This document shows positions 16,565 through 21,638 of a DNA stretch of 64,000 nucleotides, piece after piece. The translations under genes were made by a program, and so were the position numbers. Location: contig NZ_CP045571.1 of the NCBI RefSeq assembly GCF_009662475.1, positions 2,974,501 to 3,038,500 on the forward strand, read 5' to 3'. Positions within the stretch are counted from its first letter, which is position 1. Each line of letters opens with the position of its first letter. The stretch comes from Acidithiobacillus thiooxidans ATCC 19377 (GTDB lineage: Bacteria; Pseudomonadota; Gammaproteobacteria; Acidithiobacillales; Acidithiobacillaceae). The notes below the pieces were generated by a model. That model searched no databases and had not been told where the DNA came from. It was given only the letters and a program-made list of their open reading frames with translations.

Positions 16565-17502
16565 TGCAGGAAGCAGTCAACGACTTCACAGACACGCTTG
16601 CCCGCAACGGGCGCAGCAGCCCTGCCACCGTCGCGGCTTATCATCGCGACTTACAAGGCTGGTTGCACTTTATGCAAAGCCGTGGACATCAGGACATTGC
16701 CCATATTCAGCCCGGCGATTTGCGCGCTTATCTGATGGCGGAACGCAGTCGTGGAGTGGCCGTGCGCAGCCTGCGCAGACGCTTCGCCGCCCTGCGTGCC
16801 CTGTATCGGCATTTGCAAAAGGCATCACCGGATTTGTCGAATCCGGTGCAGGGCATCATGATGCCTAAATCCGAACAACGCCTGCCGGACTGGTTGACCG
16901 TCGATCAGGCCAAACAGTTGATGGACCCTGTCAAAAAGCCCTCTACAGCCCCCAATTTTGCGCAGAGCCGTGATCAACTGATCCTGGAACTGCTCTATTC
17001 CAGCGCCCTGCGCGTCAGTGAACTGGCGGGATTGGACCTGCAGGATCTGGATCGTCATGGCGGGACCGTGCGGGTCATGGGCAAAGGCAGCAAGGAGCGC
17101 ATTGTTCCAGCCGGAAAAACCGTCTGGCGAATGCTCGATCTGTATTTACCCCTCCGTCATGCTCTGCTTATGGACAAGCATCTGCTTGAAGAAAACGCTT
17201 TACTGCTCAACGCCGCTGGTCATCGCCTCAGTGTTCGCAGCATTCAGATCCGCATAAAGGAAATGGGAGAAAAACGCCTGGGGCAGCATATTCATCCCCA
17301 CACCCTGCGCCATAGTGCAGCCAGCCATTTTCTCCAGTCCGCCGGAGATTTGCGCGCCGTGCAGGAGTATTTGGGACACGCAGGTATTGCAACCACGGCA
17401 ATTTATACCCATATGGACTACCAGCAGTTGGCGCATGTATATGATGCGGCTCACCCGCGCGCCAGACACACAAAACGCCCGGAAACCGAGGACAAGTTAT
17501 GA
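16558..17502 (+). CDS. xerC: Tyrosine recombinase XerC
   Basis: A 314-residue tyrosine recombinase that, with XerD, resolves chromosome dimers at dif. The N-terminal SAM-like DNA-binding domain covers about residues 1-95. Catalytic residues are Arg in [13 protein letters not shown], Lys in [12 protein letters not shown], His-x-x-Arg in [10 protein letters not shown], His in [14 protein letters not shown], and Tyr in the latter. Gene order with dapF and DUF484 identifies it as XerC rather than XerD. The stop overlaps the hslV start by 4 bp. Confidence 0.94.
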
Positions 17503-18038
17503 CAGATGCATTACCCATGCACGGCACCACCATACTTTGCGTGCGTCGCGGCAGCAATGTGGTGATGGCCGGAGATGGTCAGGTAACTTTTGGCAATACC
17601 GTCATGAAAGGCAATGCCCGCAAGGTACGCCGCATTGAACCGGGCGTATTGACTGGCTTCGCGGGGGCCACCGCCGATGCTTTTACCCTGCTCGAACGCT
17701 TTGAGGCCAAACTGAAAGCCCATCCCGGACAACTGGCCAAGGCGGCCGTTGAACTCGCCAAAGAGTGGCGCACCGACCGGGTATTGCGGCGCCTGGAGGC
17801 GATGCTGGCCGTTGCGGACGATAAACAAAGTCTGATTATTACCGGCCAGGGCGATGTGCTGGAACCGGAATTCGGCATTATTGCCATTGGCTCCGGCGGT
17901 CCATTTGCCCTTTCTGCAGCCCGTGCCCTGCTTGAAAATACCGAGTTGCCAGCCCGTGAGGTCGCCGAACGGGCGCTGGGCATCGCCGGGGACATCTGCA
18001 TTTATACCAACCACAACCATACGATTGAAGAACTATGA
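17499..18038 (+). CDS. hslV: ATP-dependent protease subunit HslV
   Basis: A 179-residue proteasome-like peptidase; hexameric rings stack with HslU. The mature N-terminal nucleophile is Thr10 in [12 protein letters not shown], so a nine-residue propeptide must be removed, longer than in E. coli where only Met precedes it. Other landmarks are [15 protein letters not shown] and [14 protein letters not shown]. HslVU degrades misfolded proteins and regulators such as SulA and sigma-32. It is coupled to xerC upstream and hslU downstream by short overlaps. Confidence 0.97.
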
Positions 18039-19363
18039 GCATGTCTGAAATGACCCCCCGTGAAATCGTCCAGGAACTGGACAAGTACATCATCGGCCAG
18101 TCTGACGCCAAGCGTGCAGTGGCAATTGCCCTGCGCAACCGCTGGCGGCGCGGCCAGGTGCCTGCCCCCCTGCATCAGGAAATCACCCCCAAAAACATCC
18201 TGATGATTGGGCCTACCGGCGTCGGCAAAACCGAAATTGCCCGCCGTCTGGCGCAATTGGCCAACGCCCCTTTCATCAAGGTCGAAGCCACCAAATTCAC
18301 AGAAGTGGGTTACGTCGGCAAGGATGTGGAATCCATTATCCGGGACTTGACCGAAACGGCCGTAGACATGATTCGTAGTGAACGCCAAACGGCCATGCGC
18401 CAGCGCGCTGAAGAAATGGCCGAAGAACGCATTCTCGATGCGTTGATTCCCGGCCCCCGGGACAGCACGGTGCCACGCAGCGATGAAGGGACCCGCCAGA
18501 AATTCCGCAAAATGCTCCGCGAGGGCAAGCTGGATCAGCAGGAAATCGAAATTGAGGTTGCGGCTCCCAAAGCGGGTGTGGAAATCATGGCACCAGCGGG
18601 TATGGAAGAAATGACCAACCAGCTGCGGGATATGTTCTCCAATATGTCCCAGGGTAAAACCAGCACCCGCAAGGTGCCGGTGGCAGAAGCCCGGCGTCTG
18701 CTGACGGAAGACGAAGCTGCCAAGCTGGTCAATGAAGAAGAAGTACGGGCTCTGGCCCTGGAAAGGGTGCAATCTGGCGGCATTGTTTTCATTGATGAAA
18801 TCGACAAAGTCGCCGTGCGCTCCGGTAGTCAGCAGGGTACCGACATTTCCCGGGAAGGGGTGCAGCGGGATTTGTTGCCGCTAGTGGAAGGATCCAACGT
18901 CAGCACCCGTTATGGCGTGGTGAAAACCGACCATATCCTGTTCATTGCCTCCGGGGCATTTCATCTCAGCAAACCTTCGGACCTGATCCCGGAACTGCAG
19001 GGACGACTCCCCATTCGCGTAGAGTTGGATGCCCTGAGTGCGGCAGACCTGGTCCGTATTCTGCAGGAGCCAGAAAACGCCCTGGTTCGTCAGTACAGCG
19101 CCCTGCTCGCCAGTGATGGGGTCACACTGCAATTTACTGATGATGGCGTACAGCGCATTGCCGAAATCGCGCAACAGGTCAACGAACGGGTCGAGAACAT
19201 TGGCGCCCGCCGCCTGCATACCATCATGGAACGCCTGCTGGAAGAAGTGGCTTTTTCAGCGCCAGACCTGAGTCAGCCCAGCGTGGAAGTCAACGCAGCC
19301 TATGTGGATGGACGCTTGCAGGACCTCGCCCAGGACGAAGACCTGTCCCGCTATATTTTATAA
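18035..19363 (+). CDS. hslU: HslU ATPase, unfoldase partner of HslV
   Basis: A 442-residue AAA+ unfoldase. Walker A is GPTGVGKTE (59-67) and Walker B is [10 protein letters not shown]. The insertion I domain (about 110-235) and the sensor-2 segment near [14 protein letters not shown] are present, and the extreme C-terminus DLSRYIL is the tail that docks into HslV. The ATG overlaps the hslV stop (ATGA). It converges with the rpoH/DsrE-like pair, leaving 26 bp between the stops. Confidence 0.98.
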
Positions 19364-19389: not shown

Positions 19390-19713
19390 TCACGGCTTGA
19401 GATAAAACGCTCCGGCCGCCTGGGCTTGGGCAATGGCAATGACACCAGACAGAACCAGATGACTGCCAGCAGGCCGGGCGGCTGGATCAAGGCCCATGTT
19501 GCGCAGACTGTTTTCACAAAAATCCACACATAAACCGGCGCTGATCCGCTCTTCGATTTCCCGCCGCCAGTGACCATGCGCCCACAATGATACCGGGGAC
19601 TGACCATTGGCAATAACGCGCAGCGCCTGTTCGGGATCCGCCGCCGCTGCATTGCGCACATTGGCCAACAAATTCGGCCAGCGCCCTGCATCATCAATAT
19701 GAAACAACAGCAT
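19390..19713 (-). CDS. DsrE-like sulfur-relay family protein
   Basis: A 107-residue DsrE/DsrF-like protein: an opening beta strand (LLFHIDDAG), then EQALRVIANG, and the conserved cysteine in VDFCENSLRNMGLD (about residues 68-81). Members of this family carry persulfides during sulfur oxidation or tRNA thiolation. It starts at ATG 19713, 4 bp after the rpoH stop, so it is probably the second gene of the rpoH operon. The link between a heat-shock sigma factor and a sulfur-relay protein is unexplained. Confidence 0.78.
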   Translation of the reverse strand: MLLFHIDDAGRWPNLLANVRNAAAADPEQALRVIANGQSPVSLWAHGHWRREIEERISAGLCVDFCENSLRNMGLDPAARPAGSHLVLSGVIAIAQAQAAGAFYLKP

Positions 19714-19717
19714 CGTT

Positions 19718-20578
19718 TCAGGCCGCCGGACTGAGTGCCAGCATTTTCTGACGCAGCTTGCCCATGCTGCTTTTTTCCAGCTGGCGGATACGCTCTGCCG
19801 AAACTCCCAGCTCATCACCCAGCACTTGTAGGGTCTTGGGATCTTCGCTGAGCCAACGGTTTTCAATGATGTAGCGATCACGCTGAGGCAGGGCCGACAA
19901 GGCACTCTGCAATACGGTATGCTGGTGCTCGTCCCAATCCCTATCCAGGAGTTGATCCACAGTGGACTCCGCAGGATCAGCCAGTTCCATGACCCGCGAA
20001 TGACCACTTTCCTCATCGGGCTCCATATTCAGGGAATAGTCATGACCAGTCATCCGGCCTTCCATTTCCAGCACCTGCTCCCGGGTAACGCCAAGATCTT
20101 CAGCAATGGCCGCACTTTCCTCACCACTCAACCAGCCCGTGTGGGTTCGGCTGGAACGCAGATTAAAGAACAGCTTGCGCTGGGCCTTGGTGGTAGCCAC
20201 TTTGACAATACGCCAGTTGCGCAAAATGAATTCATGAATTTCCGCTTTGACCCAATGTACGGCAAAAGAGACCAGGCGTACGCCATGATCAGGATCATAG
20301 CGCTTGACGGCTTTCATCAGACCGATATTCCCTTCCTGAATCAGGTCGGCTTCCTGCAGGCCGTAGCCCCGATAACCCCGGGCAATCCGCACCACAAAGC
20401 GCAAATGACTGAGCACCAGGGATTTTGCCGCTTCGACATCGTCATGATCGCGCAGACGCAGGGCCAGATCCCGCTCTTCTTCAGGCTCCAGCATGGGCTG
20501 GGCATTGACAAAACGCAGGTAAGCCGTCAGCCCGTCTGCACTGACCAAATCCCTACTGGCTATAGCAAGTTCATTCAT
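19718..20578 (-). CDS. rpoH: Heat-shock sigma factor RpoH (sigma-32)
   Basis: A 286-residue sigma-70-family group 3 factor. Region 2 (HLRFVVRIARGYRGYGL, QEGNIGLMKAVKRYDP, RLVSFAVHWVKAEI) recognises -10 DNA. The RpoH box is visible in QRKLFFNLR. Region 4 (RDRYIIENRWL, DELGVSAERIRQLEKSSM) reads -35 DNA. I chose the ATG at 20578 (MNELAIAS); the open frame starts six codons earlier. It directs chaperone and protease genes on protein-folding stress. A sigma-32-type promoter is visible upstream. Confidence 0.96.
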   Translation of the reverse strand: MNELAIASRDLVSADGLTAYLRFVNAQPMLEPEEERDLALRLRDHDDVEAAKSLVLSHLRFVVRIARGYRGYGLQEADLIQEGNIGLMKAVKRYDPDHGVRLVSFAVHWVKAEIHEFILRNWRIVKVATTKAQRKLFFNLRSSRTHTGWLSGEESAAIAEDLGVTREQVLEMEGRMTGHDYSLNMEPDEESGHSRVMELADPAESTVDQLLDRDWDEHQHTVLQSALSALPQRDRYIIENRWLSEDPKTLQVLGDELGVSAERIRQLEKSSMGKLRQKMLALSPAA

Positions 20579-20686
20579 AGTTAGTCCTCGCAACAATCAA
20601 CATACATTGGACTCTCAAGATCTGCAGCTGGTTCCTTAATTCCAAAAACTGAGCCGAGCCTCTCAATACATATAGAGCATAAGGAT

Positions 20687-20716
20687 TAGATGGAGATCCC
20701 GAACAATATTTTCAAG
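20687..20716 (-). promoter_or_regulatory. Candidate sigma-32 promoter for rpoH
   Basis: On the minus strand CTTGAAA (20710-20716) is followed, after 14 nt, by CTCCATCTA (20687-20695). This fits the sigma-32 consensus CTTGAAA / CCCCATNT with the usual spacing. It lies about 110 bp upstream of the rpoH start, in the gap after ftsX, and points into rpoH, suggesting positive autoregulation. Confidence 0.6.
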
Positions 20717-20729
20717 GGCAGCTCATCCA

Positions 20730-21638
20730 TTATGAAAAAGTATGGTCGAGGTGTTGACCCACTGCAAGGCGTGAACCCAGCCAACCAAGAATAGCGCTGA
20801 TAATAATCAGGATCAGTCCTTCCAGACCCGTCAGGCCTAAAAGCTGAAACCGGGTACCATACAAAGTCGCCAGACGATCAACCGGTTCCTGCAAAATCGC
20901 GATGGTAATCGCAATAATAATCCAGGCCAGTATTCCGGCAATGGCCCCCTGAATCAGTCCCTGATACAAAAACGGCCGGCGGATGAAGGCCCGCGTTGCC
21001 CCCACCAGACTGGCAATATCAATTTCATCGCGGCGCTGGGCAATATGCAGGCGAATGGTATTACCCATAACCAGAATTGCACCCACGGCCAACATAATGG
21101 CCAAAATCCAGACAGCCCTTTTGCCCAGGGCCAGAATGGCCTGCAGACGTGCCACCCAATGCAAATCGGATTGGGCACTGGCAACTCCGGGTTGACGCGC
21201 CCACTCCTGAACTTGCGCCTGCAAGGCCGCCGGACTTTCAGATAATGGATTCAGTTCAACAATAAACGAAGCCGGGAGTGGGTTTTCTCCGAGAATTTTG
21301 ATGGCAGCCGTCATTCCGGCGTTTTTTTCAAACGTTTTCAATGCGGCTTCCTTACCGACATAGCGCACATTGACGACTCCGGTGCTGCCCTGTAACTGCT
21401 TCTGCAGCTGCTGTATGTCTTGCTCTGTAGCATCCTGATGGAGAAAAAGTGAAATCTGGGCTTGATCTCGCCATTGCCCAAACAATTGCTGGAGATTATT
21501 GAGCGCCGCAAAAAGGCCCACAGGTAGCGCCAGCACAATAGCCAGGGCAAAAATGGTCATTAGCGTTGCTAACGGCTGCTTCAGCAGGGTGTTCAAGGCA
21601 TTTTGGGCGGCTTCCCGACGAATATGTAAGGCACTCAC
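20730..21638 (-). CDS. ftsX: Cell division protein FtsX
   Basis: A 302-residue four-helix membrane subunit of the FtsEX complex. A first helix (LATLMTIFALAIVLALPVGL, about 21-40) precedes a large periplasmic domain (about 45-165) that in relatives activates peptidoglycan amidases through EnvC. Three more helices follow (AVWILAIMLAVGAILVMG and two near the C-terminus). The start is GTG, overlapping the ftsE stop. ATP use by FtsE drives conformational change in the periplasm at the septum. Confidence 0.96.
   Translation of the reverse strand: MSALHIRREAAQNALNTLLKQPLATLMTIFALAIVLALPVGLFAALNNLQQLFGQWRDQAQISLFLHQDATEQDIQQLQKQLQGSTGVVNVRYVGKEAALKTFEKNAGMTAAIKILGENPLPASFIVELNPLSESPAALQAQVQEWARQPGVASAQSDLHWVARLQAILALGKRAVWILAIMLAVGAILVMGNTIRLHIAQRRDEIDIASLVGATRAFIRRPFLYQGLIQGAIAGILAWIIIAITIAILQEPVDRLATLYGTRFQLLGLTGLEGLILIIISAILGWLGSRLAVGQHLDHTFS

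Follow-up and report, generated by a model that had tools for sequence, protein, structure and literature searches.

The rpoH locus and its neighbours

The window, i.e. the whole stretch of 64,000 nucleotides that was analysed, comes from an Acidithiobacillus of the A. thiooxidans group and carries rpoH, the gene for sigma-32, on its minus strand (19718..20578, with the ATG at 20578-20576). The encoded protein of 286 aa scores 395.6 bits against NCBIfam TIGR02392 (cut-off 323.1) and is 98% identical to the RpoH of A. concretivorus, A. sulfurivorans and strain HP-2. The ribosome-binding sequence GAGGA precedes the start codon on the same strand (20585..20589). Both published A. thiooxidans rpoH primers have exact matches in the window, at 20098 and 20191 (PMC10487802). 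In the same paper, rpoH and dnaK did not move together in RT-PCR of A. thiooxidans under pH stress, a point against a sigma-32 promoter at rpoH, although the stress was other than heat.

The upstream gene, identified by a profile match, is ftsX (20730..21638, minus strand); ftsE and ftsY, named by eye, lie farther upstream. No terminator-like site was found between ftsX and rpoH on the rpoH strand, so that read-through from ftsYEX is possible. An open reading frame of 107 aa (19390-19713, minus strand) begins 4 bases past the rpoH stop codon, between rpoH and the end of hslU at 19363. It has no NCBIfam or Pfam match and is probably co-transcribed with rpoH.

The convergent neighbour of rpoH is hslV-hslU (17499..19363, plus strand; profile match), an arrangement in which the initial annotation had seen an activator and its attenuator side by side. 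The synteny is real: by motif search, a convergent hslU is present at 12 of 12 named loci of the family Acidithiobacillaceae, versus none of 52 others with at least 2.5 kb of downstream sequence. The functional half of the proposal fared less well, since HslVU is a minor protease of sigma-32 in E. coli, where FtsH is the main one (PMC1523291), and no convincing sigma-32 promoter was found upstream of hslVU in the window. One candidate, ATTGCAA-14-ACCCATATG (score 11, 113 nt before hslV), was rejected because it lies within xerC codons and its -35 box decays in relatives. According to work cited in PMC5760092, E. coli HslUV in purified form degrades sigma-32 in vitro when the temperature is raised; the same paper found no degradation by wild-type HslUV in Caulobacter. 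The synteny makes a weak case for a circuit and we do not read it as one; convergent genes share no promoter.

A sigma-32-type site directed at rpoH

On the minus strand, at 20716-20687, the sequence CTTGAAA-14-CTCCATCTA stands about 110-138 bases upstream of the rpoH start and is directed at rpoH. Its -35 box (20710..20716) agrees with the sigma-32 consensus at 7 of 7 positions and begins 13 bases beyond the ftsX stop codon. The spacer of 14 nt, atattgttcgggat (20696..20709), is followed by a -10 box (20687..20695) that departs from the consensus CCCCATNT by a single mismatch (CTCCAT); the four closest relatives have CCCCATNT in three cases and CCCCATCC in one. The boxes, their spacing and their orientation, all claimed in the initial annotation, were thus borne out. 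A start 5-9 nt past the -10 box would place the 5' end of the transcript at 20678..20682 and give a leader of about 100-104 nt. An RNA thermometer in this leader, with a stable fold that hides the start, is not supported, as the fold was no better than that of shuffled sequences (z +0.95).

Sites were scored over 14 consensus positions, with a -35 box CTTGAAA and a -10 box CCCCATNT lying 13-15 nt apart, according to the consensus established for E. coli sigma-32. The motif TTGAA / ccATcT, quoted elsewhere for sigma-32, is close to it (PMC9866376). The site upstream of rpoH obtained 13 of 14, the top score on both strands of the 64 kb, where the runner-up reached 11.5, and CTTGAAA-N14-CTCCATCTA occurs a single time in the 3.4-Mb genome. 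When the 170-nt stretch upstream of rpoH was shuffled with conservation of its dinucleotides, none of 2000 sequences reached the score of the site. Across ten site-bearing regions, 0-3 of 2000 shuffles did so, as compared with 253-1494 of 2000 for three regions lacking the site.

The strict pattern CTTGAAA-N14-CNCCATNT has two matches in the window's genome, upstream of rpoH and of grpE-dnaK, and none in the reversed control. A looser form, TTGAA-N13..17-CNCCATNT, gave 12 matches versus 1 in the reversed control: the same two upstream sites, nine inside longer open reading frames on either strand, and one (L035) that precedes an open reading frame resembling, by eye, a phage antirepressor. Throughout the family (29 genomes), there are 43 occurrences of the strict pattern and none of the reversed control. 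The downstream gene is grpE in 26 cases, rpoH in 11, lon in 3 (L305 and L306 assigned by NCBIfam on partial proteins below the full-length cut-offs, the G003 match by similar sequence only), a J-domain gene in 1 (L323, identified from its protein) and rpoD in 1 (L324, from a partial protein), the last match (L327) being unexplained. These targets, together with the empty reversed control, make the pattern a specific mark of sigma-32 promoters in this family. The genes grpE, lon, rpoD and that for the J-domain protein are classical sigma-32 targets. The site at L324 sits inside an open reading frame that is dnaG by eye; in E. coli, too, a sigma-32 site upstream of rpoD lies within dnaG. The gene dnaK is a sigma-32 target (PMC5760092), and sigma-32 promoters have been predicted for three small heat-shock genes (PMC3252397).

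As a positive control we used grpE, which is preceded by CTTGAAA with CCCCATNT in all 27 family genomes that have the gene with a score over the cut-off, the spacing being N14 in 26 of them and N15 in one (L126). In the window's genome the grpE-dnaK promoter reads CTTGAAA-N14-CCCCATAT. It shares its spacing with the rpoH site, but, unlike the latter, it has a perfect -10 box and serves chaperones rather than a sigma factor. groES has no sigma-32-type site, and a CIRCE repeat with at most 2 mismatches was found in 27 of the 27 groES loci examined (of 29). In the window's genome, the region upstream of groES (L168, G000:C1:2504493-2507771) contains a TTGACA/TATGAT pair, which we take to be a sigma-70 promoter, next to the repeat, presumably the HrcA/CIRCE operator. 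Judged by these motifs, the two big chaperone operons, groESL and grpE-dnaK, seem to be under different control.

We considered the possibility that the distal site is read by another sigma factor, either sigma-70 or a second ECF factor. The genome does have other sigma-70-family factors, to judge from four weaker matches and from PMC12194929. Yet the other locations of the pattern (grpE, lon, the J-domain gene and rpoD) make up a sigma-32 set. In addition, the sole sigma-70-like match ahead of rpoH lies elsewhere in the region and, with 1 match found versus 1.0 expected, is at chance level, so that we rejected it as a promoter. Reading by another factor is therefore very unlikely.

Conservation of the distal site within and outside the family

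Twenty-six of the 29 family genomes have rpoH, the other three being 69-85% complete. Conservation in close relatives had been named in the initial annotation as its own test and was borne out, though not throughout the family: a site scoring 11-14 precedes rpoH in 18 of the 26 genomes, but the remaining eight lack a working pair of boxes. In all 18 the spacer is N14, the score exceeds that of every control block of the same locus, and the site begins 102-143 nt ahead of the ATG. Among 13 representatives, constraint differed along the element: mean pairwise identity was 0.70 in the -10 box, 0.30 in the spacer, which differs between clades, and 0.31-0.45 in the flanks, the value of 1.00 for the -35 box being a product of row selection. 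The spacer is common to the window and the four relatives closest to it (L002-L006); these do not count as independent. In three of the four genera, the boxes have been kept while the spacer diverged, which calls for selection.

In genera g2 and g4, CTTGA overlaps the stop codon of ftsX (TCT-TGA of ftsX falling within the -35 box), so that coding could preserve part of this box. As an explanation of the match as a whole, preservation by the end of ftsX, or plain chance, has next to no probability: the -35 box of the window lies clear of the ftsX stop codon, the -10 boxes lie beyond it in all 18 site-bearing genomes, and neither the shuffles of the window's upstream stretch nor the reversed control in 29 genomes yielded an equivalent.

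The eight genomes without the pair (L009-L012, L014, L015, L017 and L019) include A. ferriphilus, A. ferrivorans and A. ferruginosus. Neither box is found upstream of rpoH at L009-L012, L017 and L019. L014 has no -35 box and retains TTCCATATG; L015 has no -10 box and retains CTTGAAA, which is thus present before rpoH in 19 of the 26 genomes. These two remnants look like decaying sites, i.e. like loss. On the RpoH tree, the presence and absence of the site require three changes, and three are also forced by the well-supported branches alone. In the outgroup family, the site was found in 0 of 2 genomes. It is retained in G003 and G007, which we take to be A. ferridurans and A. ferrooxidans; with these two assignments assumed, iron oxidation is no clean sorter of site-bearing and site-free species.

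The statement in the initial annotation that E. coli rpoH is not read by sigma-32 agrees with our scan, in which no such site was found within 300 nt upstream of rpoH in E. coli MG1655. The best match scored 10 of 14, a value reached by 529 of 2998 background blocks of 470 nt, of which 5 reach 12 and 1 reaches 13. Genomic SELEX with E. coli gave a strong peak for RpoE (37.4) in the ftsX-rpoH gap, the only mention of ftsX in the text of the paper (PMC5493296), which fits an absence of RpoH binding there at the SELEX cut-off. At 68 named rpoH loci of other bacteria, a score of 13 never occurred, and at least 12 was attained once (Actinobacillus vicugnae, 350 nt upstream). In the 73 other gammaproteobacteria of the phylum sample, a score of at least 12 was found once, versus 0 of 73 on the reverse strand. 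This one locus (L203, G226:C1), from another gammaproteobacterial order, has a perfect 14, CTTGAAA-14-CCCCATCT, 224 nt ahead of the RpoH match, and may be an independent gain. Of the genomes of other classes (36 examined of 145), two reach 12 (L283 with 13, L260 with 12), versus 0 on the reverse strand; the alphaproteobacterial sigma-32 consensus differs from the one scored, which makes this comparison a weak test.

A probable second promoter and the likely control of rpoH

The initial annotation was silent on a second element, situated some 55 bases ahead of the rpoH start and conserved more widely than the sigma-32 site. It reads GGAACC-17-GTCCAA (20607..20635, minus strand), looks like a sigma-E (ECF)-type promoter and would give a leader of about 20-24 nt. 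The sigma-E consensus consists of GGAACT/C and TCYAA/TCTGA, 16-17 nt apart. The pattern RRAACY-16/17-GTCYAA finds its best match at 53-59 nt before the ATG of rpoH in every one of the 26 family genomes, with 11 or 12 of 12 in 24 of them and 10 in two. No reverse strand (0 of 26) attained a score of 11, and among shuffles 0.4% did. The pattern was derived from the same sequences, so that the weight is borne by the constant place and by these controls. With a looser form, 32 of the 73 other gammaproteobacteria had at least 12 of 13, as against none on the reverse strand, and 55 had at least 11, as against 14 on the reverse strand.

A cognate RpoE is encoded in the window's genome (335.5 bits versus a cut-off of 236.15), where degP/htrA is preceded by a site of the same form. 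Among degP-like loci, 13 of the 28 examined (of 30) score at least 11.7, all 13 in the window's genus. Genome-wide, GGAAC-N17/18-GTCYAA was not enriched (5 matches versus 9 in the reversed control), and no sigma-E-type motif was seen by eye in the 400 nt upstream of rpoE in the window's genome. In view of the lack of genome-wide enrichment, the sigma-E assignment draws its support from the conservation of the element, from its form and from the site ahead of degP.

The proximal promoter raises the possibility that it governs rpoH for the main part, together with read-through, and that the sigma-32 site is weak and dispensable, with little effect on RpoH. Such a division would be in keeping with the constant presence of the sigma-E-type site at one place in 26 of 26 family genomes (24 with a clear score) and its frequency in other gammaproteobacteria, with the absence of the sigma-32 site from several lineages, and with the situation in E. 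coli, where translation, sequestration and proteolysis provide most of the control over sigma-32 (PMC1523291). It does not account for the selection needed to retain the sigma-32 boxes in three of four genera while the spacer between them diverged, and we consider it rather unlikely.

Very probably, then, the distal site is a real sigma-32 promoter that reads rpoH and provides positive feedback beside the sigma-E-type promoter and read-through. While both sites, their positions and conservation, and the specificity of the distal one are observed directly, we infer from them that sigma-32 polymerase initiates at the distal site, that heat induces it and that a net amplification results. The control exerted on sigma-32 by chaperone and protease would be lifted by unfolded protein, and polymerase carrying free sigma-32 would then initiate at about 20680, producing extra rpoH mRNA and hence more sigma-32. 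Envelope stress would act through the sigma-E-type promoter (20635-20607), with a start near 20600, and ftsYEX read-through would add to rpoH transcription. The loop would be limited by DnaK-J, owing to the perfect sigma-32 promoter of grpE-dnaK, and by proteolysis, probably mostly through FtsH as in E. coli.

A broader generalization is more speculative, and we put it forward only tentatively: in Acidithiobacillaceae, transcription of rpoH might be run by two stress sigma factors, sigma-E and sigma-32 itself, no housekeeping promoter of its own being evident except for ftsYEX read-through. The gene would then act as a two-input, self-amplifying switch, with a feedback arm that some species have retained while close relatives lack it or have it in a decayed state. 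If so, the latter difference would be a natural experiment on the purpose of sigma-32 feedback, which the usual E. coli scheme does not include at the level of rpoH transcription. The patchy distribution of the site would allow one to compare, in otherwise similar bacteria, how positive feedback alters the speed and size of the heat-shock response and the way it is shut off. Of the two inputs to rpoH, the sigma-E-type one is the more widely kept. One member of the family, A. ferrooxidans, is used in metal bioleaching (PMC3252397). Among the matches listed for titles and abstract openings in the open-access PMC literature, there was no report of an rpoH promoter in Acidithiobacillus.

E. coli and Acidithiobacillus have the gene order ftsX-rpoH in common. 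The sigma-E promoter of E. coli rpoH, which we take to be the one named P3, has the same form and spacing as the proximal site of the family (TGAACT-16-GTCTGA in E. coli). An identical placement is ruled out by the distances to the gene, as about 121 nt separate P3 from the E. coli ATG, compared with 53-59 nt for the Acidithiobacillus site. The two organisms also differ in the sigma-32 site ahead of rpoH, present in Acidithiobacillus and absent from E. coli. A closer parallel is offered by promoter P2 of Caulobacter crescentus rpoH, reportedly described by Wu and Newton in 1997. This promoter is sigma-32-dependent, heat-inducible and autoregulated (PMC3751524), so that the kind of circuit proposed here is already known. 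In both cases rpoH would have its own sigma-32-type promoter, directly upstream on the same strand, beside a second promoter. The partner differs: it is a sigma-70 promoter (P1) in the alphaproteobacterium Caulobacter, whereas in Acidithiobacillia it looks like a sigma-E promoter.
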